A DNA stretch of 30,000 nucleotides. Origin: a virus. The stretch covers positions 1-30,000 of the IMG/VR virus record IMGVR_UViG_3300045999_008007. One strand, 5' to 3'. Positions 8,564-27,027 of the stretch are shown here, piece by piece. The notes under the pieces were generated by a model that was not told the DNA's origin, did not search any database, and saw nothing but the letters and a program-made list of their open reading frames with translations. Positions within the stretch are counted from its first letter, which is position 1, and every line of letters starts with the position of its first letter. A program made the position numbers and the translations under genes.

Positions 8564-8995
8564 ATGAGTGCTTGGTATCAAATCAAAGATTTAGAAGGTT
8601 TTATTAATCATGCACGACAATTGGTGTTCCAATCATTTGGATCTATTAATGATGATGCCAATGATGATTTAACATACACACTATCTATATTAGCACCAAA
8701 AGATCAAGAAGAATTAGATAGAATATTGACATATGATGAATGTTTTACTATGGCTAAAAACCATATGAAAGTTAAAATAAATAAAAAAAGTAAAACAGAA
8801 AATTATTATGTTAATGATCTGATACTAAGTGCAATATTAGAATCTTTTAATAGTAGAATGGTCAGTAATATATTATCTAAATTGGTTAGTGATGGACTAT
8901 TAGACAGTGCGTTTGATAGTGAAAAAAATGATTTTGTATTTTGGATAAAAGATAATGAAGAACAAAACGATACACAAAAGCCAGAAACCGATTGA
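8564..8995 (+). CDS. Hypothetical phage protein
   Basis: The product is 143 aa, with AGGAAA ahead of ATG 8564. It is mostly helical and charged. The C-terminal half (NDLILSAILESFNSRMVSNILSKLVSDGLLDSAFDSEKNDFVFWI) looks like a small winged-helix-like unit, with a helix pair followed by DGLLD and a beta strand, as in short phage regulators; this is only a shape argument. It overlaps the zinc-ribbon/RuvA-III-like gene by 41 nt, which in turn overlaps ruvB, so the three are probably cotranscribed. No family is recognised. Confidence 0.55.
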   Translation: MSAWYQIKDLEGFINHARQLVFQSFGSINDDANDDLTYTLSILAPKDQEELDRILTYDECFTMAKNHMKVKINKKSKTENYYVNDLILSAILESFNSRMVSNILSKLVSDGLLDSAFDSEKNDFVFWIKDNEEQNDTQKPETD

Positions 8996-9416
8996 TTACG
9001 AAGCACACTTTAAATATGAGTGTCCAGAAAAGCGTTGTGGATTTACTCATTGGATAAGTGCCAGACAAGCCCAAACAAAAGGCTATAAAATAGTCTGTGA
9101 TTGTGGAGCAGTATTCAGACCTAAAAGAATACGAAATATTAAAATACAATATGTCGCTACGGTAAGAAAAGAATATAAACCCACAACTGCAAAACAGACA
9201 GAACAAAAAATAGTACAAGAAATTAACATTGACTTTCTAAGCCAGTGTGTTAAAGTATTGGTTAACTATGGTTTTACCGATACTGAAGCCAGAGAATATA
9301 TAATCTCTGCTTATCGTATAAATCCAATTAATAATGTTATTGGCCTAATTAAATTTACTTTGGAACAAATTGGAGAAAATAATAATGGCAAACGGAATTC
9401 GACCAACTCAATTTAG
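8955..9416 (+). CDS. Zinc-ribbon-like protein with RuvA domain III-like C-terminus
   Basis: The product is 153 aa. The N-terminal part has C23, C28, C48 and C50 (CPEKRC and CDC), a probable zinc-binding fold that could contact nucleic acid. A basic linker (about 55-90) follows. Residues 93-141 (including LVNYGFTDTEAREYI and LIKFTLEQI) match the pattern of RuvA domain III, a small three-helix unit (LVALGY-EA-LI-AL) that binds RuvB and controls its ATPase. The gene overlaps ruvB by 32 nt. RuvA domains I and II, which bind the four-way junction, are absent, so this may be an alternative adaptor that brings RuvB to DNA through the zinc part. Similarity to a general UBA-like fold is the main alternative. 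Confidence 0.55.
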   Translation: MKNKTIHKSQKPIDYEAHFKYECPEKRCGFTHWISARQAQTKGYKIVCDCGAVFRPKRIRNIKIQYVATVRKEYKPTTAKQTEQKIVQEINIDFLSQCVKVLVNYGFTDTEAREYIISAYRINPINNVIGLIKFTLEQIGENNNGKRNSTNSI

Positions 9417-10278
9417 TGAGATCATTGGTCAGACCGATGTTCTGAATCGTCTGAGCGTCTGTGTGACGGGTTGTAAAAGTTCTGGTGGTGTGATGCCTCA
9501 TGTTTTAATAGACGGGCCTCCTGGCCTCGGTAAAACGACTATAGCGAGTGCCATAGCGTCTGAGATGGGTTCAAATCTGTATACCACCAATGCTGCTAAT
9601 CTCAGAAGCATTAAGAATATTCTCCCTTATCTAATGGGAATGGATCAAGGATCAATCTTATTTATTGATGAAATCCACAGACTACCAAAGATTGTGGAAG
9701 AATTTCTATATCCAGTTATGGAAGATTTTAAACTCCATATAGTTGTTGAAGGAGTTGTTGAAGATATTGACATTCCAGTATTTACTATGGTTGGTGCTAC
9801 TACCAATGGTGGAAGATTAAGTCAACCATTTTATGATCGTTTTCAAATTAAAGAACATCTCTCTTTTTATACCGACGATGAGTTAGCCAAACTAGCAGGA
9901 TTGAATTGTGAGAAACTAGGAATAGTCATAGAAGAATCAGATCTTTTGGAAATTGCACAGAGAAGCAAAGGTACTCCTAGAATTTTAAATGCTAGACTAC
10001 AGTGGTATAAAAATTATAAAGTTTGCAATCCTACAGCAAAATGTGTGAATGATATTTTTAGTGTGCAAGGTATTGATAAATATGGTTTAGATGTGTATGA
10101 TAGAATGTATTTGCAATTACTAGTCAAGTCAAAAGGTAGTCCCCTTGGACTAAAGAGTATTTCTTCAATAACTGGTATCGCTACGGAGACTATAGAGAAT
10201 AGCATTGAGCCATTCTTAGTAAGAAAAGGATTTGTAGTAAGAACCCAAAAGGGTAGAGTAATCGGAGATTACAAATGA
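9385..10278 (+). CDS. ruvB: RuvB-like Holliday junction branch-migration ATPase
   Basis: The product is 297 aa, somewhat shorter than cellular RuvB (about 330-350). ATG 9385 is chosen over TTG 9370 because GGAG (9372-9375) precedes it and RPTQFSEIIGQ aligns with the RuvB start. Walker A GPPGLGKTT (44-52), Walker B ILFIDEIH (91-98), sensor 1 GATTN (137-141), the arginine-finger region FYDRF (149-153) and sensor 2 KGTPRIL are all present. The C-terminal winged helix is typical too (GIDKYGLDVYDRMYL, SPLGLKSIS, EPFLVRKGF, TQKGRV). RuvB motors drive branch migration of recombination junctions. No RuvC or full RuvA is in this window; the overlapping upstream gene offers a RuvA domain III-like partner. 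A clamp-loader subunit is unlikely given the RuvB-specific C-terminal domain. Confidence 0.92.
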   Translation: MANGIRPTQFSEIIGQTDVLNRLSVCVTGCKSSGGVMPHVLIDGPPGLGKTTIASAIASEMGSNLYTTNAANLRSIKNILPYLMGMDQGSILFIDEIHRLPKIVEEFLYPVMEDFKLHIVVEGVVEDIDIPVFTMVGATTNGGRLSQPFYDRFQIKEHLSFYTDDELAKLAGLNCEKLGIVIEESDLLEIAQRSKGTPRILNARLQWYKNYKVCNPTAKCVNDIFSVQGIDKYGLDVYDRMYLQLLVKSKGSPLGLKSISSITGIATETIENSIEPFLVRKGFVVRTQKGRVIGDYK

Positions 10279-12037: not shown

Positions 12038-12766
12038 TTGGTCAGATACTTATTTATTTTTCTAATATTAATAGGATCCAGTTTAGCAGGAACTATTGAC
12101 CCTAGTACTCCAGACAATCAATATTTGGAGTATGCTAAAGAGTTTAGTTTTATGGGAAAGATTGGTGGTAAAAATCAAAAGGGAATGACTTACTTTGCTT
12201 CTGGAGTTGCCATCAGTTCGCATCGTATTTTGACTGCTGCCCATGTTGTCAAGGATTGTAATAGTTGTTTTTTTTATATCAATAATAAAGAGTATTGTGT
12301 TTATAAAGTCGTTTATAGTAAAAAACATGATACAAGTTTTGGTGTTGGTGATATTGCTTTAGGTTTTATAGAAGAAGATCTGAAATTAGAATCTTATCCA
12401 CAACTATATACTGAATTTGATGAAATCGGAAAACTATGTTCTATATCAGGTTTTGGAATGACAGGAACATTTGAAACTGGACCAAACATTGGAGATACTA
12501 AACATAGAGCAGGATTAAATCGGATAGACTATATTGAAAATGAGTTATTGGTGTGCTCGCCCAGTAAAGGTAAAGATAAAACAAAATTAGAGTTTTTGAT
12601 AGCGAGTGGAGATAGTGGTGGTGGATTATTTATTGATGGTAAATTAGCTGGTATTAATTCTTGTGTTTTTGTAAGTCAAGGCTCACCAAATTCTAAATAT
12701 GGCACAGAAAGCGGACACACCAGAATTAGTAAATATATTGATTGGATTAGAGAGAGTGCAAGATAA
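12038..12766 (+). CDS. Secreted trypsin-like serine protease (S1 family)
   Basis: The product is 242 aa. It starts with TTG at 12038: GGAGG (12027-12031) is 6 nt upstream and no nearby ATG fits. Residues 1-18 are a Sec signal peptide (basic start, FIFLILI core, SSLAG cleavage region). The catalytic triad is visible: H69 in LTAAHVV, D105 in GDIALG and S193 in GDSGGG. Four or more cysteines allow disulfides, fitting an exported enzyme. S1 proteases cut proteins after basic or other side chains. A phage-encoded exported protease is unusual; it could act on envelope or secreted host proteins or mature virion parts. GC is similar to the neighbours, so recent transfer is not obvious. Confidence 0.88.
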   Translation: MVRYLFIFLILIGSSLAGTIDPSTPDNQYLEYAKEFSFMGKIGGKNQKGMTYFASGVAISSHRILTAAHVVKDCNSCFFYINNKEYCVYKVVYSKKHDTSFGVGDIALGFIEEDLKLESYPQLYTEFDEIGKLCSISGFGMTGTFETGPNIGDTKHRAGLNRIDYIENELLVCSPSKGKDKTKLEFLIASGDSGGGLFIDGKLAGINSCVFVSQGSPNSKYGTESGHTRISKYIDWIRESAR

Positions 12767-13554: not shown

Positions 13555-14088
13555 ATGAATATTGCTCATAAATTACATTCATCTAAGACTCCTATCATTC
13601 ATGGTGATTTATTTACGTTTATCGATGATCATATTCATGGTGGTAATAATGGATGTAGTATTATAATCCCTCATGTATGTAATAATATCAATTCATTCGG
13701 GGCAGGATTTGCAGCAGCAGTTGCTAACAGATTCCCAATAGTCAAAGAAAATTATCACCTTTTAGGATCTAAAATTTTAGGACGCACACAATTTATCGAA
13801 GTATTTAAAGATAAAACTTTTGGTCATTCTCTAATTTTTGCAAATATGATATCTCAAAATGGTACTATATCTTCCAAAAATCCACGGCCTCTAAATTATG
13901 CTAGTCTTTGTCAGTCTATGATTATGGTATCAAAATTTATTCGTGAAAAATTCGATAAAGATCAATCAGTACAAATCCATGCACCAAAATTTGGGTGTGG
14001 TCTTGCTGGAGGTAATTGGAGTTTTGTTTCAGAGTTAATTCGTGATATTTGGTCTAATATTCCAGTTTTTATATACGAGAAAAAATAA
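13555..14088 (+). CDS. Macro-domain protein (ADP-ribose binding/processing)
   Basis: The product is 177 aa, essentially one macro domain. A first ligand loop is seen in IIPHVCNNINSFGAGFAAAVANRFP (in parts, residues 36-61), with an Asn and the glycine-rich turn, and a second in PKFGCGLAGGNWS (144-156). Macro domains bind ADP-ribose and some remove it from proteins or DNA, or hydrolyse ADP-ribose-1''-phosphate. A phage copy could reverse host defence modifications such as those made by DarT-type enzymes; that is inference. AGGA precedes the ATG. The stop overlaps the start of the fucosyltransferase gene by one base, so both are on one transcript. Confidence 0.85.
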   Translation: MNIAHKLHSSKTPIIHGDLFTFIDDHIHGGNNGCSIIIPHVCNNINSFGAGFAAAVANRFPIVKENYHLLGSKILGRTQFIEVFKDKTFGHSLIFANMISQNGTISSKNPRPLNYASLCQSMIMVSKFIREKFDKDQSVQIHAPKFGCGLAGGNWSFVSELIRDIWSNIPVFIYEKK

Positions 14089-14867
14089 TGTCTATTAGTT
14101 TTAATTTTCTTGGCCAGCAAGGTAGACTAGGTAATCAGATTTTTCAGTTTGCTGCTACTAAAGGATTGGCAAGTCATCATAAATATCATTATATAATACC
14201 GAAAGAAAATCATCAGTTGATAGAGTGTTTTACTCTACAATCATTAGACGAGTCTAATTTTGGCTTTAATCAAGTTTCTCAAAGAATAAATGAAAGATTT
14301 TTTAATTGGGATAAATTATTATTTGATCAATGCCCAGACAACATAGATTTATTTGGATACTTCCAGTCTGAAAAATATTTTAAACATATTGCCAATGAAT
14401 TAAGATTTGATCTTACATTCAAAAAAGATATATTAAAAACTGCATTTGTATTTTTAGAAAATTTAAGTAAAGAACCTATAATATCTTTACATATAAGAAG
14501 AGGTGATTATGTAAATCATCCTAGGCACGGTGGATGCTGTACTAATGAATATTACTCAAATGCTCTAGACCTATTTGATAAACATATTCCAGTAGTCATA
14601 GTTAGTGATGACCCCTCATGGATAAAAACACAAGATTTATTTAAGTCAGATAGATTTATAGTATCAAATAATAATCAATTCGTCGACCTTTGCATAATGA
14701 GCTTATGTGACTATCATATAATTGCTAATTCTTCATTTTCATGGTGGGGTTCATGGTTATCTTGTAGTGAAAAAACAATCGCTCCTAAACAATGGTTTAC
14801 TTCCGCTGCTGGTATTGAAAACTGGAATGATATTTATTGTTGTAATAGAAATTGGATTTTAATATGA
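14088..14867 (+). CDS. GT11-family glycosyltransferase (alpha-1,2-fucosyltransferase-like)
   Basis: The product is 259 aa. GRLGNQIFQFA (12-22), SLHIRRGDYV (133-142) and IIANSSFSWWGSWL (211-224) are the hallmark motifs of GT11; the HxRRGDY stretch binds GDP-fucose. These enzymes transfer fucose in alpha-1,2 linkage to galactose or similar residues on lipopolysaccharide, capsule or protein glycans. There is no signal peptide, so it should act in the cytoplasm. Length is close to bacterial relatives (about 280 aa). It is the first enzyme of the island; no GDP-fucose synthesis genes (gmd, fcl) are visible in this window, so the donor may come from the host or from genes further downstream. Confidence 0.9.
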   Translation: MSISFNFLGQQGRLGNQIFQFAATKGLASHHKYHYIIPKENHQLIECFTLQSLDESNFGFNQVSQRINERFFNWDKLLFDQCPDNIDLFGYFQSEKYFKHIANELRFDLTFKKDILKTAFVFLENLSKEPIISLHIRRGDYVNHPRHGGCCTNEYYSNALDLFDKHIPVVIVSDDPSWIKTQDLFKSDRFIVSNNNQFVDLCIMSLCDYHIIANSSFSWWGSWLSCSEKTIAPKQWFTSAAGIENWNDIYCCNRNWILI

Positions 14868-15661
14868 ATTTTAGCGTTTTTTATACTTGTTATACAGAAA
14901 CTGAGGCGGTCAGTTATTCCATAGATACGTTAAAGGTAATATATCCTGATTGTCCAGTATATCTAGTATCAGATGGTGGTAGTGATTATACTTTTTTAGA
15001 AACTAAATATAGTAATATAAAAACTAATTTAGAGTTTGATTCTAGAGGATTTGTTCCACAGATTAATGATAATTTTAAAAATCCAGATCAACAATTATTA
15101 ATTAAACAATCTATATTAACTTTTTTAGATAGAACTAAAAGAGCAATAGAATATGGTCAACAAGACTATCTATTAGTTATGGAGCCAGACGTATTAGTCA
15201 GAGGTAAACTATCCAATCCAAATAATAATTATTTATTAGGAACAAGAATTAATAGTGGACTGTCAGATACACTAAAACAAACTTTACAATTATACCCACA
15301 AGGTATATCTATTGATAATTGGGGAGCAACACCAGCAATCTTTAATAGTCAAATATTTTTGAAAGCATATGATAATTTTTTAAAATATCCAGATCTATTA
15401 GATAAATTATGCTTATCAGATAAAAGATTGGCCAATTATGATATTGTATTCCCCGTATTATTTGCAACTATCGGAGTAGTTGAATCTTTTAATCCAGAAA
15501 TTGTAGAGTGTTATAGAAATTCAGAATGGCAAACTAGTAATCATCCATTAGTACATCAATTTAGAGCAAAATATCCAACAGCATCTCAAGGATATACTGG
15601 TAGACATAACGATAATGAATTCGGGAGTAATTGGTTGTGGAACAATCAAGCACAGTCGTAA
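14864..15661 (+). CDS. Putative GT-A-type glycosyltransferase
   Basis: The product is 265 aa from ATG 14864, which overlaps the previous stop as ATGA; an earlier TTG at 14852 is less likely. The start FSVFYTCYTETEAVSYSIDTLKVIYPDCPVYLVSDGG is the usual first beta-alpha unit of GT-A enzymes. Residues around 105-115 (YLLVMEPDVLVRGKL) hold the acidic EPDV where GT-A enzymes carry the DxD metal site. DNWGATPAIFNSQIFLKAYDNF and YDIVFPVLFATIG could form the acceptor side. No family number is assigned. It overlaps the next gene by 25 nt if the GTG at 15637 is that gene's start. Confidence 0.65.
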   Translation: MNFSVFYTCYTETEAVSYSIDTLKVIYPDCPVYLVSDGGSDYTFLETKYSNIKTNLEFDSRGFVPQINDNFKNPDQQLLIKQSILTFLDRTKRAIEYGQQDYLLVMEPDVLVRGKLSNPNNNYLLGTRINSGLSDTLKQTLQLYPQGISIDNWGATPAIFNSQIFLKAYDNFLKYPDLLDKLCLSDKRLANYDIVFPVLFATIGVVESFNPEIVECYRNSEWQTSNHPLVHQFRAKYPTASQGYTGRHNDNEFGSNWLWNNQAQS

Positions 15662-16428
15662 CTGCATTATTTGATATAGGCAGAGACAGCAAAGGTGATG
15701 GAAGAACTATAGACCAGTATTTGGACTGGTTTGACAAAACATTAAAATTAAATGTTCCATTTACTATTTACACAGAAAATCGATTTAAAGATTTTATCTT
15801 ACAACGTAGAGATATTTCCAATACTTCTATAATTATTCAAAATCTAGAAGATGTTCCATATTATAAATATAAAAATAAAATTGAAGATATTTTAAAATCG
15901 CCTAGTTATCGTCAATTAATAAAAGATTCATCTAGAATAGAGTGTAATCTATCGTTATATAATATTATTCAATACTCTAAATTTGAATGGTTGGTAGATG
16001 CAATTGATAGAAATAATCAATACGACTATTATTTTTGGATGGATGCTGGATGTAGTCGGTTTTTTGATGATGTGAATACTTCTATTATATGGCCACAAAA
16101 TTATTCCATATTAAAAAAAGATAGATTGAATATTCAAGGAAATATCAATACTATAAAATATTATCAGTCATGGCCAGGAGACGATATTTATGTTTGGGAT
16201 AATAATTGTTTATTAGTTGGAACATTATTTGGTAGTTCATCAATAGTATGTAAAAATATTGCAACAAAAATGAAATCCTTATTTGAGTTTTATCTCAATC
16301 AAGATATTGTAAATAATGAACAAATATTATTAGCTATATTATTTAAAAATAATCCAGAACTATTTTCAATCCATATAGAATTGAATCATAAACATCTCCC
16401 GTATTTCTCTGCATTATCTCATCAATAA
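15637..16428 (+). CDS. HtrL/YibB-like (WlaTC-type) putative glycosyltransferase
   Basis: The product is about 263 aa. GTG 15637 is chosen over TTG 15631 because GGAG (15624-15627) lies 9 nt from the GTG but only 3 nt from the TTG. STVVTALFDIGRDSKGDGRTIDQYLDWF, FTIYTENRF and YYFWMDAGCSRFF follow the layout of the HtrL/YibB family, found in LPS-core and Campylobacter LOS loci (wlaTC). The WMDAG is the metal-binding region. Members are believed to be glycosyltransferases, with little biochemical proof. The gene overlaps the previous one by 25 nt. Confidence 0.75.
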   Translation: MEQSSTVVTALFDIGRDSKGDGRTIDQYLDWFDKTLKLNVPFTIYTENRFKDFILQRRDISNTSIIIQNLEDVPYYKYKNKIEDILKSPSYRQLIKDSSRIECNLSLYNIIQYSKFEWLVDAIDRNNQYDYYFWMDAGCSRFFDDVNTSIIWPQNYSILKKDRLNIQGNINTIKYYQSWPGDDIYVWDNNCLLVGTLFGSSSIVCKNIATKMKSLFEFYLNQDIVNNEQILLAILFKNNPELFSIHIELNHKHLPYFSALSHQ

Positions 16429-16430
16429 TC

Positions 16431-17183
16431 ATGAGTGAAAAAATTATTAAAACTTTGAAGGGATTTTCTGGAAGCACTGTTTTATTGATGGAAAATGCTG
16501 ATGGAAATAGATTTATTCGTAAAATAAATAATACAGATAGAAACTATGAAAGACTATCTTCTTTATTAAATTATGGATTTAAAGTTCCTATTATCTATCA
16601 AAAAAATAATCATATTCTTGATATGGAATATATAGATGGATTAGATATTAAAACTTACTTAAAAGTACATGGTATTGAATATCTATTAAATTTTTTATTT
16701 TCAATTATTGATAAAATGTCATATATGTCTATAGATAAAAACTATTCTGACATTTATAATTATAAATTATCCATAATTAATTTTGAAGATTTACCATTTA
16801 GTAAAGATGAATTATTATTAAAATTACCAAATATTTTGCCACAATCCATATATCATGGAGATATGACTTTAGAAAATCTTATTTATGCAAAAAATAATCA
16901 ATTCTATTTAATAGATGCTGTGACTATAGAATATGATTCTTGGGTTTTTGATATAGCCAAGATGAGACAAGACTTGCATTGTGGTTGGTTTATCAGAGAT
17001 AGTCAAGATCATAATCTAATGACATATGCAAATATGTTACAAGATAGGTTACTAACACGTTTTAGAATTGCCAATAACGATTATTTACTTATATTAATGT
17101 TATTACGAGTATTTCAACACGCCAAAAAAGATTCGTCAGAATACAATTTTCTTCTTAGTGAAATTCAAAAATTATGGAAATAA
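16431..17183 (+). CDS. Aminoglycoside-phosphotransferase/choline-kinase-like kinase
   Basis: The product is 250 aa. SIYHGDMTLENLIY (139-152) is the catalytic HGDxxxxN loop of the APH/choline-kinase fold, LIDAVTIEYDSWVFDIAKM (from 160) holds the metal-binding Asp (D162) and the typical DxxKM-like end, and RFIRKI around 27-32 offers the ATP lysine. Such kinases phosphorylate small alcohols or sugars. It overlaps the following nucleotidyltransferase-HAD gene by 10 nt; kinase then nucleotidyltransferase is the arrangement of LicA-LicC and of sugar-activation pathways, so the product is probably the substrate of the next enzyme. The actual substrate (choline, ethanolamine, sugar) cannot be read from the sequence. 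Confidence 0.75.
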   Translation: MSEKIIKTLKGFSGSTVLLMENADGNRFIRKINNTDRNYERLSSLLNYGFKVPIIYQKNNHILDMEYIDGLDIKTYLKVHGIEYLLNFLFSIIDKMSYMSIDKNYSDIYNYKLSIINFEDLPFSKDELLLKLPNILPQSIYHGDMTLENLIYAKNNQFYLIDAVTIEYDSWVFDIAKMRQDLHCGWFIRDSQDHNLMTYANMLQDRLLTRFRIANNDYLLILMLLRVFQHAKKDSSEYNFLLSEIQKLWK

Positions 17184-18196
17184 TTATTCCCGCCGCTGGT
17201 TTATCATCTAGATTTCCTAATATGAGACCAAAATATACTCTAGTCGATTATTCTGGACAAATGATGCTCAAAAGAGCGGTTAATCCATTTCTTGGCAAGT
17301 ACAATATTACAATAGGTATATTACAAACTCATAATGAAAAATATGATATAGTGAATTTACTTAAATATTATTTTAATGAAGATATAAATATTGTGGTCCT
17401 TGAACACGAAACCACAGGCCCAGCAGATACTGTCAAACAAATTATAGATAAAGCTAATTTATCTTTAGACTCTGAAATTTTTATTAAGGATTGTGATAGT
17501 TTTTTTGATCATTCTTATCTTGAAGGTAATTATATTTGTATTTCAAAATTATCTAGTAATAAAATAATTAGAAATCCTGGATCTAAAAGTTATATCATAT
17601 CAAACGATCAAGGTATCATACAGAATATAATTGAAAAAAGTATTGTTTCAGATAAGTTTTGCGTTGGCGGATATAAATTTGAAAACTCAAGAATGTTTAT
17701 TGATGCTTTTGACAGAATTAATAAAAATAATAAAGAAATTTATGTATCAGATATTATACAATATTGTTTAAGCAATAATCGTACTTTTCTTGAAAATATT
17801 GTTACAGATTATACTGATGTTGGCACAGCAGAAGATTGGTTTACTTACAATGATAAGGCGGTTATTTTTTGTGATATAGATGGCACCCTGATTCAAGCAC
17901 AGTCTAAACATCATTACCATCAACCCACTATACCATTACCAGAAAATGTTACAAAATTACAGCAATTACTTGCTGATGGTAATCAAATAATTTTTGTCAC
18001 AGCAAGACCACGATCTGCTGAAGAATATACTAGAAAAATGTTAAATGATTTGGGTTTTAATAATTGTCAATTAATAATGAATTTATTAAATTGTAAAAGA
18101 ATATTAATTAATGATTTTAATACAGCCAATCCATACCCAAGAGCCATAGGTATAAATATTCAAAGAAATAGTGACACACTTAAGGAGTTTATATGA
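17174..18196 (+). CDS. Nucleotidyltransferase fused to HAD-family phosphatase
   Basis: The product is 340 aa with two domains. Residues 1-225 are a nucleotidyltransferase: IIPAAGLSSRFPNMRPKYTL (3-22) is the NTP-binding start, DCD at 106-108 the metal site, and YTDVGTAEDW (213-222) the typical end. Residues 229-340 are a HAD phosphatase: FCDIDGTLI (232-240), FVTARPRS and the ILINDFN acidic motif. The transferase half would activate a phospho-compound as NDP derivative and the HAD half could hydrolyse a phosphate in the same pathway. It follows the APH-like kinase with a 10-nt overlap. AAGGAG near its 3' end serves the next gene. The fusion order resembles bacterial capsule-locus proteins; the exact donor is unknown. 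Confidence 0.8.
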   Translation: MEIIIPAAGLSSRFPNMRPKYTLVDYSGQMMLKRAVNPFLGKYNITIGILQTHNEKYDIVNLLKYYFNEDINIVVLEHETTGPADTVKQIIDKANLSLDSEIFIKDCDSFFDHSYLEGNYICISKLSSNKIIRNPGSKSYIISNDQGIIQNIIEKSIVSDKFCVGGYKFENSRMFIDAFDRINKNNKEIYVSDIIQYCLSNNRTFLENIVTDYTDVGTAEDWFTYNDKAVIFCDIDGTLIQAQSKHHYHQPTIPLPENVTKLQQLLADGNQIIFVTARPRSAEEYTRKMLNDLGFNNCQLIMNLLNCKRILINDFNTANPYPRAIGINIQRNSDTLKEFI

Positions 18197-18816
18197 TAAC
18201 ATCAACAGACATTTCCAATTTTCTAAATACTCAACAATATAATCAATCAACTGAATTATGTGAACTTATGGAAAAACATAAATCAGATAAGAGTCTATTA
18301 AAAGGTTGGCATAATTATACCACCATTTATAACCTCTTATTCAAGCATCTTCAAAATGAACCAATAAATCTTTTTGAGGTTGGTATTTTTCATGGATATT
18401 CCTTGTGGGCATGGAAAGAATATTTTCCTAATGGAAATATCTATGCTGGTGATATTAGAACAGAAACATTTATAAATGAAGAAAGAATTAGTTCTTTTTA
18501 TTGTGATCAAAGAAATCCTTCAGTATTATCTGAAATGTGGAATAATGATCAATTGAAAGATGTGATGTTCGATATTATTATTGATGATGGAGATCACACT
18601 TTTGAATCTAATTTTAGTTTCTTAGTAAATTCTATTCATAAACTTAAAATCGGTGGTATATTTGTTATTGAAGATATTTTGAATCATGATGTTGAAAGAT
18701 TTTTACCAATACTTGAAAATATCAAACAAGAATTTTCTTTGCAGCATATCGAATTAATCAGGCTGCCCTTTGAACCAAATCAAATAGATAATAATATTAT
18801 TGTAATTATTAAATGA
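18193..18816 (+). CDS. Class I SAM-dependent methyltransferase
   Basis: The product is 207 aa. AAGGAG (18182-18187) lies 5 nt before ATG 18193. LFEVGIFHGYSLWAWKEYFPN (60-80) is the SAM-binding motif I, YAGDIRTE (84-91) carries the acidic residue at the end of strand 2, and FDIIIDDGDHTFESN (126-140) plus LKIGGIFVIEDI are the later motifs. This pattern resembles the small sugar O-methyltransferases of natural-product and cell-surface clusters (the cephalosporin-hydroxylase/macrocin group). In this island it probably methylates a sugar of the glycan or a nucleotide sugar. It overlaps both neighbours by 4 nt. Confidence 0.8.
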   Translation: MITSTDISNFLNTQQYNQSTELCELMEKHKSDKSLLKGWHNYTTIYNLLFKHLQNEPINLFEVGIFHGYSLWAWKEYFPNGNIYAGDIRTETFINEERISSFYCDQRNPSVLSEMWNNDQLKDVMFDIIIDDGDHTFESNFSFLVNSIHKLKIGGIFVIEDILNHDVERFLPILENIKQEFSLQHIELIRLPFEPNQIDNNIIVIIK

Positions 18817-19685
18817 ATAATATTTATCTTTTAACTTTTTATACAGAAGGTGGTAAAATAGACAAAGGGTATGAATTAAAAAACATAACCTCTGCTATCA
18901 AAGAAAAACTATCTCCATATTTTACTAACATATTTACTTTTAATAAACAACAATTAAAAGAATTGCCAAACAGTCAAGATGTTTGTAATGAATATGATGA
19001 AGCACTGGATATGAATCCAAATGCTAATTATATTGGCTATTTTGATTTTAAAGGTTTTTTAATTAGTCATATTTTAAAACAGATTCCTGAGAATTCTATT
19101 TTAATTTATCATGATAGTAATTTTGAAAAAAATGCCCAGTATTGGGAATCTGATTGGCCTAATATTAACAATTTATGTGAAACAGTTTTACAGCATAATG
19201 AAAGTGATATTTTTTGTCAATTTGAGAGAGATAACGTTTTAGTTAAAGAATATGTTAAAACACATACAATTGATGCCCTTATAACAGATCCAACAGAGAA
19301 TGGTTTAATTAAAAATTGTTACCTGATCAATGCCGCAAGAATTATTTTGAGAAATACTCCATTTAGCCGTCAGTTTATCAAAGAGTATTCTGATCTGTGT
19401 GCTGATAAGACTTTGCTCTCAAAGAATCCCAACGCTAATCCTGACCCATCATTTAAATGGTCATGCGGCGATCAAGATGTTTTAAACTGTCTCATATATA
19501 AATATATTTTGGACGATAAACTAAAACCAACTTTTCCTATCTTTTCATTCTTATATAGAGTATTGAGATTTGAAAATAGACCTTTCAATTGGATTGGTCA
19601 AAATTGGAATCCTCATCCAACAGGTGCAAGCGCTTTAACTAATTCAGCATTAATAGATTATTTAAAAAGGAAATTCTCATGTTAA
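18813..19685 (+). CDS. Putative glycosyltransferase-like protein
   Basis: The product is 290 aa, starting by ATGA overlap. NIYLLTFYTEGG and IGYFDFKGFLISHILKQIP lead to ILIYHDSNFEKNAQYW, where HDSN could hold the metal-binding acidic residue. Further on, NAARIILRNTPFSRQFIKEYSDLC and FKWSCGDQDVLNCLIYKYIL resemble the acceptor-side GDQD helix of GT-A enzymes that transfer sugars in surface loci. There is no signal peptide or membrane span. Family assignment is uncertain, and the glycosyltransferase call rests on these motifs and on the context between a methyltransferase and another transferase. It overlaps the next gene by 7 nt. Confidence 0.55.
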   Translation: MNNIYLLTFYTEGGKIDKGYELKNITSAIKEKLSPYFTNIFTFNKQQLKELPNSQDVCNEYDEALDMNPNANYIGYFDFKGFLISHILKQIPENSILIYHDSNFEKNAQYWESDWPNINNLCETVLQHNESDIFCQFERDNVLVKEYVKTHTIDALITDPTENGLIKNCYLINAARIILRNTPFSRQFIKEYSDLCADKTLLSKNPNANPDPSFKWSCGDQDVLNCLIYKYILDDKLKPTFPIFSFLYRVLRFENRPFNWIGQNWNPHPTGASALTNSALIDYLKRKFSC

Positions 19686-20713
19686 TAGGAAGTGATCATA
19701 TTTTTCCACAAAGTCAAACAGAGGTCATGGACATCTCGGACCCCTTGAATCTTCATAAAATTTATATACAAAATGTTCAGACTCAAAGTAAACACCTATC
19801 TGATTGCTACCTCAGCTTCGATCCTGTATCAAAAAATCTCAGATTTGTTTCTTCTTATTTTTGTGAAGGTATTAAGAAAGGTTTAATCCCACGTATTTCT
19901 CAAAACTGTAGGGGTGGCGAAGATGGGTGGTGGAGAGAAAGAACTGGGGAGAGTTGGTATCCTTGGTTATGGACAAGATATTTTTCAAATAATTCATGTA
20001 ATGAACAATCTTGGAACAATTTATTTAAAGATATTAAAGATATTATTGATGATTTACCATCTGATATTAAACAAGCAGAAGGACAGTTGTCTGAATTCTA
20101 TCTTTATTTGGCATGTTTAGATCATACTTTTAGACTCAATGAAGAATTTGAGACAAAACTTAATGCTACACTATTAAATTATATATGGCCATCTAATCCT
20201 GTTTGTGGATTACAAATTAGAAGAGGTGAAATGGTTCCTCAAGATGGTAGTGTTAATAAATCATGGAATGGCCGACCAATTTTTACTATAGATGATTATA
20301 TCCATGGACTCGATATAGTCTGCGAAAAACTTGGGACCAATGATGTTTTTGTTTCTACAGATTCTTTAGAGACAATAAACTATTTAAAAAATAATTATTC
20401 TAAATATAATTTTATTTCTAATTTATATGATAGAAATTTATTTATTAGATATGATGGAGATGCGTCTACTGTTCATTTATCAATTGATTTACAATCTAAT
20501 CAGCATTTAATTCAGCATTATACAGAATCTTGTGTTGCTGATCTTGTGTGTTTAGCAAAATGTCAGGGGTATGTTGGTGGTATGAAACATTCTGAATATG
20601 GAGTTACTGGTTGGTTTTTACAAATGACAAAGCAAAAACAAATTACTCCTTATTATAATGTTGAAGGTAATTTTAATTTACAAGATAAACCTGTAGGATT
20701 ATTTTTACTATGA
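19679..20713 (+). CDS. Putative fucosyltransferase-type GT (GT23/O-FucT-like)
   Basis: The product is 344 aa. PVCGLQIRRGEMV (174-186) matches the HxRRxD-type GDP-sugar loop of alpha-1,6-fucosyltransferases and NodZ, with glutamine in place of histidine and GE in place of GD or TD. IHGLDIVCEKLGTNDVFVSTDSLETI is the following Rossmann unit, and ESCVADLVCLAKCQGYVGG with SEYGVTGW forms the C-terminal loop of the same fold. The N-terminal 130 residues are Trp-rich (GGEDGWWRERTGESWYPWLW). It would use a GDP-sugar, likely GDP-fucose like the GT11 enzyme in the same island. Family membership is an informed guess. Confidence 0.6.
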   Translation: MLIGSDHIFPQSQTEVMDISDPLNLHKIYIQNVQTQSKHLSDCYLSFDPVSKNLRFVSSYFCEGIKKGLIPRISQNCRGGEDGWWRERTGESWYPWLWTRYFSNNSCNEQSWNNLFKDIKDIIDDLPSDIKQAEGQLSEFYLYLACLDHTFRLNEEFETKLNATLLNYIWPSNPVCGLQIRRGEMVPQDGSVNKSWNGRPIFTIDDYIHGLDIVCEKLGTNDVFVSTDSLETINYLKNNYSKYNFISNLYDRNLFIRYDGDASTVHLSIDLQSNQHLIQHYTESCVADLVCLAKCQGYVGGMKHSEYGVTGWFLQMTKQKQITPYYNVEGNFNLQDKPVGLFLL

Positions 20714-21438
20714 AAACTGCTGTTTGTTTATATGGTCAACCTAGAAATTTTCATAATAATTGGCTATATCTTAAAAATCATATTATAGATAATAATTCTG
20801 CAGATGTATTCTTTCATTCATGGTTTCATGAAAATGATTTGATAGTCAGCGGTTCCACAATGGCTGGTAAATTTTTACATCCTAATTTAAGAACTGATTT
20901 ACCTAATATTATTAATCCAAAAGATTTTATTATTGAATCTCAAAAACCATTCCATGAAAAAATAGTTACATTAACCGATAATCAAATAGATGCTTGTTGG
21001 CCTAATTTATATGGAAATCCAGATAAAACAGCATTTATTAAGAATATGACTAAAACACAATATAGTATGATGTATAGTATTCATCAGTCTGTGATGTTAA
21101 AAGAATTATATGCTCAAAAAAATCAATTTGAATATGATTGTGTTATTATTTCAAGATTTGATACCTCTCCTAAATTACCAGTAAATCTATTAGACATCAA
21201 TCTGAATAATATCACGACTTGCTATGGTCCATTGCCTAGAGGAGAAATTAATGATTGGTTTATTATATGTAATAATAAACATAGTAATATACTAGGTAGT
21301 TTATTTTTTTTATTAGACTATCACAGAGACAATATTATTGCAAATGATAGCATGTGGACACCAGAAGCATATATAAGAGAACAAGTAAAATTATTTAATA
21401 TTAATGTAGACTTTAAAAATTATAATATTACTTTCTAA
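20710..21438 (+). CDS. Putative glycosyltransferase, YGQPR type (paralog 1)
   Basis: The product is 242 aa, ATGA-coupled to the previous gene. It begins AVCLYGQPRNF (4-14), and ADVFFHSWFHENDL follows at 31-44; this GQxR then DxFxHxW pattern occurs in putative transferases of phages, giant viruses and capsule loci. CVIISRFDTSPKLP (about 141-154) holds RFD, the likely metal- or nucleotide-binding acidic motif, and NDWFIICNNKHSNILG is a conserved later block. The adjacent gene shares the same start and block order, so the two arose by duplication or pair functionally. No enzyme of this type is characterised to my knowledge. Confidence 0.6.
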   Translation: MKTAVCLYGQPRNFHNNWLYLKNHIIDNNSADVFFHSWFHENDLIVSGSTMAGKFLHPNLRTDLPNIINPKDFIIESQKPFHEKIVTLTDNQIDACWPNLYGNPDKTAFIKNMTKTQYSMMYSIHQSVMLKELYAQKNQFEYDCVIISRFDTSPKLPVNLLDINLNNITTCYGPLPRGEINDWFIICNNKHSNILGSLFFLLDYHRDNIIANDSMWTPEAYIREQVKLFNINVDFKNYNITF

Positions 21439-22301
21439 TGAAAATTGCATTCTCACTATCTGGTCAACCATATTCAACACCAGAATGTTTATCCACATTC
21501 ATAGATAATGTATATTCATCAACACGCTGTGATATTTTTTGTCATTTTTGGTATGATGAGTCTTATCTAAATAGATGCTATAAAATGCACTATAATATGA
21601 AATTGCAACAAAATAATATATCACAAAAATTTCAAAGCATATTTACTATTCTTGAAAAAAATCATAGTTATGATTTATCTTTTACACAAAGATTTGATAC
21701 TAACACATGGCAAAATATGCCATTAAATTATCATAGGATGATGACTCCTATTTTTTTGTATGGATATTTATCTCAAACAGAATCTATTAATAAGTCATGT
21801 TATAATATTTCAAATGATTATGATATAATAATTAAAAGTAGACCAGATCTTATTTATACTAAAAATATTGGTCAAATTATCTCACAGTTAGATTTTACTG
21901 AAGATACTATCTATTTTCAAGATTCTATGTACGGAGGTCATTTGTATGCTGGTGAATTTAGTCATAATATTTGTGATTGGTTTTATGTTGGTCGTAGTGA
22001 TATAATTAAACGCTTTACATTTCAATTACATAATCAAGTGTCTCATAAGTTTAGAAATGGTATCAAACATATGAGAGATTACAATCATCAGTTGTGTGAG
22101 GAAAATAATATCAAAGTTCAGTTAGTGGATTTCGGCTCTCTTATACACAAACAGACTCCACTTTTTGACACTAAATACAAAAATGATATTAGTCTTTATT
22201 TGAATGATTTTGATTTTGATAAGAGTTATCCAAGAACACCAGAACTTTGGCCATACTGGATAGAATATGTGGATTTTGTTCACTTTAAAAATATTACATA
22301 A
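21438..22301 (+). CDS. Putative glycosyltransferase, SGQPY type (paralog 2)
   Basis: The product is 287 aa. Its ATG overlaps the previous TAA by one base. AFSLSGQPYSTPE (4-16), CDIFCHFWYDESYL, DIIIKSRPDLIY and CDWFYVGRSDIIKRF parallel the blocks of the preceding protein (YGQPR, DVFFHSW, CVIISRFD, NDWFIICNN), so it is a diverged paralog. RPD in place of RFD keeps the acidic residue. It has an additional middle segment (TQRFDTNTWQNMPLNYHRMM). The same GT-A-like inference applies. It is the last gene before the only clear gap (73 nt) in the early part of the island. Confidence 0.6.
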   Translation: MKIAFSLSGQPYSTPECLSTFIDNVYSSTRCDIFCHFWYDESYLNRCYKMHYNMKLQQNNISQKFQSIFTILEKNHSYDLSFTQRFDTNTWQNMPLNYHRMMTPIFLYGYLSQTESINKSCYNISNDYDIIIKSRPDLIYTKNIGQIISQLDFTEDTIYFQDSMYGGHLYAGEFSHNICDWFYVGRSDIIKRFTFQLHNQVSHKFRNGIKHMRDYNHQLCEENNIKVQLVDFGSLIHKQTPLFDTKYKNDISLYLNDFDFDKSYPRTPELWPYWIEYVDFVHFKNIT

Positions 22302-22374
22302 TCGCTAGTTGGTGGTATGAAATTTTCCATCCTCAACTATTATACTTTAGAGTTCAATATAAAAAGGGAGAATC

Positions 22375-23628
22375 ATGTCTTATAATATAGGTTTCGTCGG
22401 TCTTGGTAAATTAGGTCTGCCAGTTGCTCTTGCAATAGAGTCTAAGGGCCATAATGTTTGCGGATATGATATTAATCCAGCAGTTAAGACATATATTGAT
22501 AACAAATCTATCCCTTACAAAGAACTTTATGTAGATGAACTATTACCACAATCTCAAATTAAATTTACTGAGATAGATGATGTGGTCCAACAAAGTGATA
22601 TCATATTCGTGCCTGTGCAAACTCCTCATGATCCTCTTTATGAAGGATGTACTCCGCTACCAGCTACTCGCGTAGATTTTAACTATGATGCTCTGGTCAA
22701 TGCTATAAAAAATCTTTCAGAGTCTGTTGATAGAAATGGTCAAGAAAAAATAGTTGTTATAATATCAACAGTTCTTCCGGGAACTATTGAAAAATATATC
22801 AAACCAGTTTTATCAAATAAGATTAAATTATGTTATAATCCATTCTTTATTGCTATGGGAACAACTATTAAAGATTTTCTTAATCCAGAGTTTGTATTAT
22901 TTGGAGTAGACGATCCTGACGCTGCAAATTATGTTGAGAATTTTTATTCAACACTACATTCTAAAAAAGTTTTCAGAACAACTATTAAAAATGCTGAATT
23001 AATTAAAGTGGCATACAACACATTTATTGGTATGAAAATAGTTTATGCTAATACTATTATGGAAATTTGTCATAAAATAGGTGCAGACTGTGATGCTGTT
23101 ATTGATGCTATTAGTTTAGCAGATGAGCGACTGATTTCTCCCAAGTATCTGCGTGGTGGTATGGGTGATGGTGGTGGTTGTCATCCAAGAGATAATATTG
23201 CTATGTCATGGCTAGCAAAAATGTTAAATTTAAGTCATGACTATTTTGAAGATTTGATGCTTGCAAGAGAACATCAAACAGAATGGCTGGCATTTTTATG
23301 TGCTGAACCACAACGACCAATTTATATCCTCGGCAAGTCATTTAAACCAGAGACTAATATTCAAACTGGTAGTCCATCGATTCTATTATTTAACATATTA
23401 TATAGTCGCGGTTTTAATGTAGATATTTTTGATCCTCATACAGATGGATTAGAAAAATTCAATGAAAAATTTTCTAAGATAGAAGGTAATTCTGTAATTT
23501 TTTTAGGTACTATGCACGAATATTTCAAAGATTTGACATATCCAAATGGTAGTATTGTGATAGATCCATTCAGATATATCCCTGATAAAGAAAATATTAA
23601 ATTAATGCAAATAGGAAGAAATTTATAA
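22375..23628 (+). CDS. UDP-glucose/GDP-mannose dehydrogenase family protein
   Basis: The product is 417 aa, standard length. GFVGLGKLGLPVA (6-18) binds NAD, VPVQTPHDP (79-87) and STVLPGT (131-137) are family blocks, K211 with AYNTF (213-217) and the catalytic cysteine in GDGGGCHPRD (C269) are present, and GKSFKPETN begins the C-terminal UDP-binding domain. The enzyme oxidises C6 of a nucleotide sugar twice to give a uronic acid donor. GGCHPRD deviates slightly from the usual GGSCFPKD. GGGAG (22366-22370) lies 4 nt before the ATG, the strongest ribosome site in the island, and a 73-nt gap precedes it, so it may start a new transcript; TATACT (22341-22346) is present but no good -35 is seen. 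Confidence 0.88.
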   Translation: MSYNIGFVGLGKLGLPVALAIESKGHNVCGYDINPAVKTYIDNKSIPYKELYVDELLPQSQIKFTEIDDVVQQSDIIFVPVQTPHDPLYEGCTPLPATRVDFNYDALVNAIKNLSESVDRNGQEKIVVIISTVLPGTIEKYIKPVLSNKIKLCYNPFFIAMGTTIKDFLNPEFVLFGVDDPDAANYVENFYSTLHSKKVFRTTIKNAELIKVAYNTFIGMKIVYANTIMEICHKIGADCDAVIDAISLADERLISPKYLRGGMGDGGGCHPRDNIAMSWLAKMLNLSHDYFEDLMLAREHQTEWLAFLCAEPQRPIYILGKSFKPETNIQTGSPSILLFNILYSRGFNVDIFDPHTDGLEKFNEKFSKIEGNSVIFLGTMHEYFKDLTYPNGSIVIDPFRYIPDKENIKLMQIGRNL

Positions 23629-24411
23629 ATGAGTAATATAGCAAAAAAATTAAAATCTAAAAATTTAGATATCTCTATATCTCATTTAAATTTTTCTTAT
23701 GATAGGGCTATTGATGTATGGAAAGCAGCATATAGTGATACTCTTAAACGAATGGCACAATCTGAAACTATACATACTTTTTTAGATCTTGGAGCTAACG
23801 TTGGAGCCACAATAAATTTCTTTTGTGAAACTTTTCCAAGTATAAATACTGTGTATGGTTTTGAACCTATGCCATTCAACTATGACTATTTAATGTATAA
23901 AATTGCACCTCTTTTATCTGAAAATAAAAAAATACAAATTTTCCAAAAAGCAGTTTATTATGGTATACAAAAAGCATCATTTTGTGGTTTAGGAGACAAT
24001 AATACTGGTGGTATGCATCTTTCAGAAATAGTTGAAAGTAATAATGCTGAATTTGGGTGGGGAGAAGCCTTTCTCATTGGTTATGATGCTGAATGTGTAA
24101 CATTAGAAGATACTTTACCATCATCAACTATAATAGATCTGTGTAAAATAGATATTGAAGGTAGTGAATGGAATGTTTTATCTAATAGTCAATTTATTAA
24201 AAACAATATCAAAAATATTTTATTAGAATATCATTTTGTTTCAAACGATGGAATAGTTAGGCGCAGAAATCCACTTTCCGGTCCTTGTTTAAGATATAAT
24301 AATGCTGAAGCATATGCTATTAAATTTATTAATGATCATCTACCTAATTTTTCTATTGTAGAAACAATACTTAGTAGTGAAGGTATTTGGATTAGGAATA
24401 ATAATTTATGA
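23629..24411 (+). CDS. FkbM-family methyltransferase
   Basis: The product is 260 aa. HTFLDLGANVGATINFFCETF (in parts, 49-69) is SAM motif I of the FkbM group, VYGFEPMPFNYDYL is its typical strand-2 block, and CVTLEDTL with IDLCKIDIEGSEWNVL is the FkbM signature in which DIEG(S/A)E follows the acidic strand. These enzymes O-methylate sugars or other small groups in surface-glycan and secondary-metabolite clusters. It starts directly after the dehydrogenase stop, with AGGAAG as ribosome site, and overlaps the next gene by 4 nt (ATGA). Likely role: methylation of a sugar in the glycan; its position next to the uronic-acid-making enzyme suggests they act on the same residue. Confidence 0.88.
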   Translation: MSNIAKKLKSKNLDISISHLNFSYDRAIDVWKAAYSDTLKRMAQSETIHTFLDLGANVGATINFFCETFPSINTVYGFEPMPFNYDYLMYKIAPLLSENKKIQIFQKAVYYGIQKASFCGLGDNNTGGMHLSEIVESNNAEFGWGEAFLIGYDAECVTLEDTLPSSTIIDLCKIDIEGSEWNVLSNSQFIKNNIKNILLEYHFVSNDGIVRRRNPLSGPCLRYNNAEAYAIKFINDHLPNFSIVETILSSEGIWIRNNNL

Positions 24412-25379
24412 AAATTTGTTTAATAGGTCCAGGTATTATGTCTATTCCCCCAGATAATTGGGGTGCTGTAGAAAGTTTAATTTGGGATTATTATCAATAT
24501 CTTAATCAGATGGGTATCGAGACAGATATAATTAATAACCCTAATCTTGTACAAGTTGCCGATCAAGTTAATAATACAAACTATGATTTTATACATCTTC
24601 ATTATGATGATCATGCAGAAACTCTAAGTAAACTAATTAAGAAGCCATTTTGTACTACCACACACTATGGATATGTTAAAGAACATTATCCTAATTATGG
24701 TGGGTGGGGTCATATTTTTAATGGTGTACTAAAAAGTCCATCAATGATAGCATTATCAAATGAAATTGCACAAGTATTCAAAAATGCAGGCTATAATAAA
24801 TCTATTAAAGTTTTAAGGAATGGAGCAAGAACATCGGAGTTCTCTTTTAATACCAATCCTTCCAAATTTGGAATCTGTCTTGGTAAAATCGAACCACGCA
24901 AAAGACAAAGAGATTTAGCAAATGTTTGTGGTGATATGTGCAATATAGATTTCTTTGGTCCTGTTATAGATCCAACATTTAGGAATAATGGTAATTGTAT
25001 TTATAGAGGTATATGGTCTAAAAAAGATCTCTATGAAAATTTAAGCCATTACAAATGTTTAGTATTATTAAGTGATGGTGAAGCTGCACCGTTAGTTGTT
25101 CCAGAAGCATTATCAGCAGGATTAAGTTTAGTGGTTTCTGAAACAGCATCGGCAAATCTAGATCCTAGTTTACCGTTCATTCATGTAATACCTAATGGAA
25201 AATTTGATCATGATCTTATTTCTAGTATTAATTATGCTATTGGTAATAACTTTAAATATAGAAATCAAATTAGACAATATGCGTTTGACCACTTCGATTG
25301 GTCTGTTATCTGCAAAGACTATATTAAAATTATAGAAGAGTTAATAGATGAGAATAGCATTTCTAACAATAGCAACTAA
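24408..25379 (+). CDS. GT4-family glycosyltransferase
   Basis: The product is 323 aa, GT-B type. KICLIGPGIMSIPPDNWGAVE (2-22, in parts) is the typical first loop of GT4 enzymes (the xxPPxxWGGxE pattern), FCTTTHYGY is the strand with a His, KFGICLGKIEPRKRQRDL (about 157-174) is the phosphate-binding region with ExRK, and EAAPLVVPEALSAG (225-238) is the C-terminal nucleotide-sugar-binding block ExxxLVxxEAxA. It transfers a sugar from a nucleotide donor with retention. It is cytoplasmic or peripheral to the membrane. It overlaps the following GT6 gene by 32 nt. Confidence 0.88.
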   Translation: MKICLIGPGIMSIPPDNWGAVESLIWDYYQYLNQMGIETDIINNPNLVQVADQVNNTNYDFIHLHYDDHAETLSKLIKKPFCTTTHYGYVKEHYPNYGGWGHIFNGVLKSPSMIALSNEIAQVFKNAGYNKSIKVLRNGARTSEFSFNTNPSKFGICLGKIEPRKRQRDLANVCGDMCNIDFFGPVIDPTFRNNGNCIYRGIWSKKDLYENLSHYKCLVLLSDGEAAPLVVPEALSAGLSLVVSETASANLDPSLPFIHVIPNGKFDHDLISSINYAIGNNFKYRNQIRQYAFDHFDWSVICKDYIKIIEELIDENSISNNSN

Positions 25380-26046
25380 TAAATATACTCATTTTGCCCA
25401 AGATTTGTATAATAGTATCAATATTTATAGAAACAACTATCCTATAGATTTGATTTGTTTTACCAATAAAGCAGATTCATTTAGTCAATCTGGGCCTACT
25501 AAATTACAGACGATAGACACTAATCATATTCCATTTCCAATGATTTCTTTATTAAGATATCATTATTATGCATCTCAAGAAAAATTATTATCTTGGTATG
25601 ATTATATCTATCACATAGATTGCGATATGCTTTTAAAAGATGATTTATCAGATGAGTTTTTGGGCGAAAGGGTTTGTGTGATTCATCCAGCCTATACTCA
25701 TCCACAACATCCTCCAGAACAATTTCCCTATGACAGAAATGAAAAAAGTGGTGCTTTTATCCCTTATGGCTATGGTCAAAGATATTATCAAAATTGTTTT
25801 CAGGGTGGATCGTCCAAAGAATTTCTTAACATGTGTAGAACATTACAAGTAAGAATAGAGCAAGATTTGAGAAAAAATTATATTGCTCTTTGGCATGATG
25901 AGAGTTATATGAATAGGTATATGGCTGAAAATCCACCAACAAAAGAATTGCCGCCCACATATGCTCAACCTGAAAACTGGCCTAGTTTTGGATTAACTAA
26001 AATTTTACATAGAGAGAAAAATCATACAGAGATCAGAAGTATATGA
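25348..26046 (+). CDS. GT6-family glycosyltransferase (ABO/alpha-Gal type)
   Basis: The product is 232 aa, matching the short bacterial/phage GT6 form without stem or transmembrane segment. FLTIATNKYTHFAQDLYNSI (5-24), YIYHIDCDMLL (86-96), FPYDRNEKSGAFIPYG (126-141), YYQNCFQGG and ALWHDESYMNRYM (180-192) reproduce the GT6 pattern of blood-group A/B and alpha-1,3-galactosyl enzymes: TIAT-KY, DxD, YPYERRP-S-AYIP, YY-GAFFGG, WHDESHLNRY. The metal motif is DCD (91-93). Such enzymes add Gal or GalNAc in alpha-1,3 linkage, often to a fucosylated acceptor, which fits the GT11 enzyme in the same island. It overlaps the GT4 gene by 32 nt and the next by 4. Confidence 0.9.
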   Translation: MRIAFLTIATNKYTHFAQDLYNSINIYRNNYPIDLICFTNKADSFSQSGPTKLQTIDTNHIPFPMISLLRYHYYASQEKLLSWYDYIYHIDCDMLLKDDLSDEFLGERVCVIHPAYTHPQHPPEQFPYDRNEKSGAFIPYGYGQRYYQNCFQGGSSKEFLNMCRTLQVRIEQDLRKNYIALWHDESYMNRYMAENPPTKELPPTYAQPENWPSFGLTKILHREKNHTEIRSI

Positions 26047-26837
26047 TTAATAAAATGAGTTTTTGCATAGCTACTAATGGAAAAAAAGAACTTATTACGC
26101 AAATAAGTATTGGCAGTATTGCAATTGCATGTAAAAATGCTAATATAAATTTTGAAATTATAATTTGTGGAGTTTGTGGGCCGTTCATTGGTTTGTCTAA
26201 GATATTATCTTTTATAAAATGTGTAGAACATAATGAAGAAGCTAATACTGGACAACTAGCAAAGTTAAGAAATCTAGCTGCTAAACATACAGATGGAGAT
26301 ATATTGATTTTTTTAGATGATGATATCATCTTTAATGACGATTGGGCTATAAAATTATTAGAATACTCCAAAAATTACTCATGGGATATCTTAGGTAATA
26401 AAATACTCATGCCTAATTATGACAGATATTGGGATAGAGCAGTAATGAGGAGGAATGGACTTCATCATATGGTATCATATGATTATCCAGATACCGATCC
26501 AGAACTATATCAAACTGGATGTTTCTGGATAGTATCTAGACAATTATTTAATCAACATGGATGGGATAGTAATATTGGTTATTATGCATCTCATACTGGT
26601 GGTATTAATGAAGATATTGAATATTCACAAAGACTAGCTTCTTATGGTTATAAATTTATGTTTAATAAAAACGGGCTTGTTTGGCATTGGGACGAATCTT
26701 ATAGAGAGATCAAATATCCTAATGATGTTAGTGTATGTGAAAAATTTAAAAATCCAGAACGAATGATTTATAGTAATGAATTTTTATCATTACTAACAAG
26801 ACTTGGTGTTGAGTATATAGTAGAACAACCATCTTGA
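26043..26837 (+). CDS. GT2-family glycosyltransferase
   Basis: The product is 264 aa, ATGA-coupled to the GT6 gene. SFCIATNGKKELITQISI begins the GT-A fold, GQLAKLRNLAAKHTDGDILIFLDDDIIF (70-97, in parts) carries the metal-binding DDD (92-94) and GGINEDIEYSQRLASYGYKF the catalytic ED and acceptor helix typical of GT2. A WHWDESYREIKYPND block ends the core. It would invert the sugar linkage from a nucleotide donor. The substrate is unknown. Its stop codon lies inside the -35 region of a strong promoter (26834-26862) that drives the following genes. Confidence 0.85.
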   Translation: MINKMSFCIATNGKKELITQISIGSIAIACKNANINFEIIICGVCGPFIGLSKILSFIKCVEHNEEANTGQLAKLRNLAAKHTDGDILIFLDDDIIFNDDWAIKLLEYSKNYSWDILGNKILMPNYDRYWDRAVMRRNGLHHMVSYDYPDTDPELYQTGCFWIVSRQLFNQHGWDSNIGYYASHTGGINEDIEYSQRLASYGYKFMFNKNGLVWHWDESYREIKYPNDVSVCEKFKNPERMIYSNEFLSLLTRLGVEYIVEQPS

Positions 26838-26862
26838 CGCGGGCCATCGCTCTGGTTATAAT
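26834..26862 (+). promoter_or_regulatory. Strong sigma70-like promoter inside the glycan island
   Basis: TTGACG (26834-26839) and a perfect TATAAT (26857-26862) with a 17-nt spacer that is GC-rich (CGGGCCATCGCTCTGGT), unlike its AT-rich surroundings. GGT precedes the -10 as in P2 and P3. The expected start near 26868-26870 is only about 6 nt before ATG 26875, so the message would be nearly leaderless. Confidence 0.7.
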
Positions 26863-26874
26863 AAACAAGATAAA

Positions 26875-27018: not shown

Positions 27019-27027
27019 ATTTCGACT

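Follow-up and report, generated by a model that had tools for sequence, protein, structure and literature searches.

We have found that the phage RuvB encoded in the window (the whole stretch of 30,000 nucleotides that was analysed, an IMG/VR virus record complete at 30 kb) is preceded by a gene whose product fails as a RuvA by membership, with domains I and II tested for and absent, yet bears a genuine RuvA domain III. The C-terminal 50 residues of this partner are homologous to RuvA domain III as judged from sequence profiles and predicted models, and four partly independent tests agree on this. RuvAB is the textbook branch-migration machine, in which domain III of RuvA regulates the ATP turnover of RuvB. 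Our results suggest that a DNA-targeting subunit of a wholly different kind can guide this classic recombination motor. We argue that the partner is probably a minimal RuvA surrogate, which would dock on the phage RuvB and activate it, and whose zinc ribbon would target the motor, most likely to branched DNA. No description of such a RuvB/partner arrangement was found in the literature searched. The locus is organised as follows.

8564 to 8995, plus strand: conserved upstream gene, function unknown (no Pfam or PHROG match)
8955 to 9416, plus strand: partner ("adaptor") gene, 153 aa (ORF; 97 distinct homologous pairs; AlphaFold pLDDT 86)
8982 to 9149, plus strand: zinc-ribbon domain of the partner, residues 10-65 (72-member alignment; pLDDT; no similarity to RuvA domains I/II)
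9150 to 9227, plus strand: linker, residues 66-91, variable and of low confidence (AlphaFold, alignment)
9228 to 9383, plus strand: RuvA domain III homologue, residues 92-143 (profile, hhalign, AlphaFold, Foldseek, alignment)
9372 to 9375, plus strand: GGAG Shine-Dalgarno for ruvB, within the 3' end of the partner gene (sequence)
9385 to 10278, plus strand: phage RuvB, 297 aa counted from ATG, with AAA+ core, lid and winged-helix head (ORF, Pfam, PDB match, alignment); an alternative start is the TTG at 9370
9514 to 9537, plus strand: RuvB Walker A, GPPGLGKT (sequence, alignment)
9733 to 9777, plus strand: RuvB presensor-1 beta-hairpin, residues 117-131, LHIVVEGVVEDIDIP, the docking element for RuvA domain III (alignments)

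The partner therefore consists of a basic N-terminus with a zinc ribbon, a flexible linker and a RuvA domain III-like unit. In the window, the partner and ruvB ORFs share 32 nt. This overlap had been taken in the sequence-only reading as a sign of matched production; the coordinates of the ORFs confirm it for the window, but it does not hold as a general feature, as 32 nt is specific to the window's clade and the overlap ranges from -7 to +32 nt across the family, with 8 the commonest. The gene at 8564-8995 is found directly upstream of the partner, or of RuvB in phages without the partner. Its product looks winged-helix-like (NDRMVSNILNSLVNKGLIETAYD...NDFVFWI in relatives), and the gene may be part of the same system.

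That the downstream gene encodes a RuvB had been called with confidence, and rightly so. The window protein matches the Pfam domains RuvB_N (9e-46), RuvB_C (1.5e-19) and the RuvB lid (9e-8), and its closest PDB match is Campylobacter RuvB (2e-63). When 44 phage RuvBs were aligned with E. coli RuvB, the ATPase motifs (Walker A/B), the arginine finger (R174 in E. coli) and the sensor 2 GTPR were found to be intact, and the basic hairpin of the head domain, with the residues used for branch migration, is kept. Phage RuvB, at about 36-40% identity to cellular RuvB, thus resembles the bacterial protein in having Walker A/B, sensors, arginine finger, lid and a winged-helix head with basic residues. 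It differs in lacking about 18-20 N-terminal residues and in the presensor-1 hairpin, which corresponds to L135-L152 of E. coli RuvB (PMC2628435). This hairpin is present in phage RuvBs, and is two-stranded in an AlphaFold tandem model described below, but comparison with 18 cellular RuvBs shows that most phage RuvBs have lost 4 aa from it; in one clade, by contrast, an insertion makes the hairpin longer.

The C-terminal unit of the partner had been suspected of resembling RuvA domain III, and profile search, hhalign and AlphaFold with Foldseek concur that it does. In a search of a profile of 33 partner homologues against 177,635 PDB sequences, the top match was the RuvA domain III of 1ixs (E=0.0034), the T. 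thermophilus RuvA-III/RuvB complex; the RuvA domain III chains 7pbl and 7pbp were listed too, with weak E-values near 1. Alignment of the unit with RuvA domain III by hhalign gave 95% probability and a score of 37.2, while none of 200 column-shuffled versions scored above 18.5. AlphaFold (72 homologues) predicted the partner with a mean pLDDT of 86, rising to about 95 in the three-helix unit (residues 92-104, 109-122 and 128-143), and the unit of this model folds as RuvA domain III: when the model was compared with the whole PDB by Foldseek, the first 17 matches were all RuvA chains, led by 1ixs_A with a TM(target) of 0.76, ahead of every UBA/CUE domain. With a unit of only about 50 aa, the Foldseek E-values are no better than 0.14, which is modest, but the ranking is unambiguous. 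In the reciprocal test, made on 4 ruvAB loci of bacteria, the phage partner profile picked out the C-terminal part of the cellular RuvA. Chance similarity was considered and ruled out by the column shuffles, the PDB-wide profile search and Foldseek. Like RuvA (PF07499; 1ixs, 7pbl), the partner carries its three-helix unit at the C-terminus on a flexible linker, and its gene is directly upstream of ruvB.

The N-terminal part is of a different kind. The sequence-only reading had pointed to a CX4C...CXC cluster and to the loss of RuvA domains I and II, and both observations stand. Across 72 non-redundant homologues, neither the four cysteines (C23-X4-C28...C48-X-C50) nor W33 ever change; only the spacing of the first pair differs, being CX4C in 43 and CX2C in 29. 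This part is basic, with a mean net charge of about +7 over residues 1-65 (family mean), and the C-terminal unit is neutral to acidic across the 72 members; the linker between them varies from 12 to 62 aa in the family. AlphaFold predicts, with pLDDT of 95-98 across most of the ribbon domain, a small beta/Cys4 domain in place of the tandem HhH. The partner has no Pfam match to the OB fold of RuvA domain I (RuvA_N), hhalign finds no resemblance between its N-terminal part and RuvA domains I/II (0.55%), and the tandem HhH of domain II is absent by hhalign and AlphaFold. Unlike RuvA, the partner has a basic Cys4 zinc ribbon instead of domain I (OB) or II (HhH), which leaves it without a known junction-binding core or tetramer. 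The zinc ribbon had no significant structural match in the PDB by Foldseek, and a viral Foldseek library gave nothing.

Docking of the partner on RuvB is inferred, as no interface was computed, but it is favoured by indirect, sequence-based evidence: conserved contact positions, strict gene adjacency and the presence of the presensor-1 hairpin. Partner residues L102, Y105, F107 and L136 align with L167, L170, Y172 and L199 of E. coli RuvA. Alanine mutants of L167 and L170 abolished RuvB activity in vivo and left junction binding by RuvA unaffected (PMC2628435). The equivalent positions are hydrophobic in 72/72 partners (L/M and Y/L/F), a likeness to RuvA at the residues critical for RuvB. On the motor side, the hydrophobic residues that match E. 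coli I137 and I139 (I119 and V121 in the window) are lost in 9/25 partner-less RuvBs vs 4/97 partnered ones (Fisher p=7e-5, uncorrected). Such relaxation of the hairpin is what docking predicts, but the comparison is phylogenetically underpowered: with correction, only about 3 supported independent contrasts remain, which go in the expected direction 1.0 time on average vs 0.1, so that the correlation cannot be significant once corrected. For the tandem model, partner and RuvB were read as one chain across an in-frame stop that occurs naturally in L299; the model carries no interface or PAE information. Both parts fold, and the top 47 Foldseek matches are RuvB, with low TM and high rmsd; the placement of the domains is therefore not trusted, and the model is no evidence for docking.

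The same pair is found in many other phages. The sequence-only reading named the parts correctly, and most of its idea holds; that the pair forms a widespread phage family, about a fifth of which has no partner, lay beyond its reach. A scan of viral contigs with RuvB found 292 relatives (the best 80 of 292 were kept), and three more scans were seeded from other clades; 122 distinct phage RuvBs were left after removal of duplicates. The partner gene is immediately upstream in 97 of these, giving 97 distinct pairs, and is missing there in 25. A scan with the partner alignment, in which RuvB was not used, gave 80 loci, 79 of them with enough sequence, and ruvB is directly downstream in 79/79; the partner was never alone in the loci examined. 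Six large phage records of 113-230 kb (L060, L075, L268, L273, L031 and L046) have RuvB with neither the partner nor a RuvA domain III-like unit anywhere, a RuvA-free RuvB, and a hidden partner elsewhere in partner-less phages was not found with profiles of the whole partner or of the unit, so phage RuvB can be retained without the partner. On the tree, the partner switches between present and absent as many as 14 times, with 3 of these switches forced by supported branches, so that its loss has probably been recurrent. The partner by itself has no Pfam match and only one, insignificant, PHROG match, and no relative was found among 50,697 public phage records, none in isolated phages; the pair belongs to a large, uncultured phage group. 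In a bacterial genome collection, relatives (67-72% RuvB identity) are confined to short contigs that were assigned to Bacteroidota MAGs, namely L372 (Flavobacteriales MAG, 8.9 kb, with the partner too) and L389 (Chitinophagia MAG). They are possibly phage contigs hinting at Bacteroidota hosts.

The recombination genes of related phages were surveyed in 18 records including that of the window, of up to 238 kb (14 of the 18 are 149-238 kb), all linear and possibly incomplete. A complete RuvA encoded elsewhere in the same phage would have told against the sequence-only reading. None was detected: RuvA_N was found in 0/18 records, and the control rang in 10/14 cellular genomes. The absence of RuvA rests on the RuvA_N search alone, since a single PF07499 search lacked the power to detect even the partner. 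Since the window is only 30 kb and the records may be incomplete, that the window's own phage lacks RuvA is an inference from the other 17. RuvC was likewise found above the cut-off in 0/18 records. With no phage RuvA or RuvC detected, these phages yet carry RecA/UvsX (15/16 records) and endonuclease VII (13/18), which sets them apart from the RuvABC system. A published survey of jumbo phages reported that their RuvC resolvases are not linked with any RuvB-like ATPase (PMC7824862). There, as here, phages have recruited the Ruv pathway, but here it is RuvB without RuvC, with endonuclease VII instead. A single-sequence search with T4 UvsW, which distant relatives can escape, gave no match outside T4 in 16 related records; Pfam searches for UvsW and gp23 are uninformative, as no control rang. 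The T4 UvsW and T5 D10 helicases are alike in a presumed phage-encoded branch-migration function, but belong to another helicase superfamily than RuvB. Of the RuvAs present in the phage collection, most look like contaminating cellular ruvAB, and one has ribosomal-protein genes nearby.

The analysis shows that the partner shares homology and predicted fold with domain III but has lost RuvA domains I/II, that the motor is intact, that the two genes are strictly paired, and that relatives carry RecA-like and endonuclease VII genes and no phage RuvA or RuvC that could be detected. On these results we build the following proposal. Co-translation, from the GGAG site inside the partner gene and overlapping or adjoining genes, would supply both proteins. 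The domain III-like unit may then dock on phage RuvB and activate its ATPase, while the basic zinc ribbon, whose DNA targeting and binding target we infer, would stand in for RuvA domains I/II and bring the motor to its target. Support for the first half of this scheme is strong; the targeting step is inferred. Because relatives carry UvsX/RecA and endonuclease VII, this target could be recombination intermediates or replication forks produced by the phage UvsX/RecA, and endonuclease VII would later cut the branched DNA; branch migration as the outcome, and a role in recombination or replication restart, remain inferences. Some findings sit uneasily with a surrogate: the partner gene is missing upstream of 25/122 RuvBs, and the hairpin on which it would dock has 4 aa fewer than its cellular counterpart. 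Moreover, the RuvA tetramer normally spaces the domain III tails around the junction, and it has no obvious substitute in the phage system.

It is conceivable that the partner docks on RuvB but its ribbon leads the motor to a non-Holliday target (replisome, transcription apparatus or packaging DNA), RuvB then being a general dsDNA translocase. The junction-binding domains are wholly absent, zinc ribbons often bind proteins, the relatives encode a resolvase themselves and the partner-less ones keep RuvB; set against the retention by RuvB of the head-domain residues for branch migration and the recombination gene set of the relatives, these points leave the idea unlikely, though not to be dismissed. 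We are more doubtful still that phage RuvB works with host RuvA, the partner being a mere modulator competing for the hairpin. The cell normally contains host RuvA, which is available in trans, and RuvB is alone in some phages. Cross-species RuvA/RuvB pairs do function (PMC9477746). However, hairpin length is altered in these phages, and partner-less RuvBs tend to lose the hairpin hydrophobics, whereas the reverse would be expected if they went on using host RuvA. By inference from the Foldseek assignment of its fold, an isolated domain III could occupy host RuvB hairpins, and the partner might be a decoy poisoning host RuvAB; its constant position directly before phage RuvB, never alone in the loci examined, and a conserved zinc ribbon that a decoy would not need make this very improbable.

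The reading to which we give least credence is that the C-terminal unit is an unrelated three-helix or UBA-like bundle, like RuvA domain III by chance or convergence. RuvA domain III does belong to the wide UBA-like fold group, and single-sequence Pfam matches to it are weak (4/33 partners, best 0.007), but sequence, profile and fold tests all put RuvA first, above every UBA/CUE domain, and the neighbouring gene is RuvB. A bolder thought, which we hold possible but would not rely on, is that RuvA domain III serves as a portable "RuvB-docking plug" in a modular RuvB system built by phages, with the zinc-ribbon adaptor directing the motor to a target other than the Holliday junction and some lineages being adaptor-free with a decaying docking hairpin.

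If the partner is a RuvA surrogate, as we prefer, keeping domain III and discarding the junction-holding core separates motor docking and activation from junction holding. Direct tests of whether RuvB needs the RuvA tetramer therefore become possible, for which the partner-less relatives offer a natural comparison. Phages with endonuclease VII also gain a candidate branch-migration motor other than UvsW.

Other genes of the window deserve mention. An 8-oxoguanine DNA glycosylase-like gene at 644-1360 (Ogg-HhH, Pfam 6.8e-7) lies beside an ATP-dependent DNA ligase (3-590), forming a DNA-repair neighbourhood. A trypsin-like serine protease at 12038-12766 (Pfam Trypsin 7.8e-13) has an apparent N-terminal signal peptide and is unusual for a phage. 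From 14088 to 28358, judged from translations only, glycosyltransferase/sugar and methyltransferase-like genes are densely packed.
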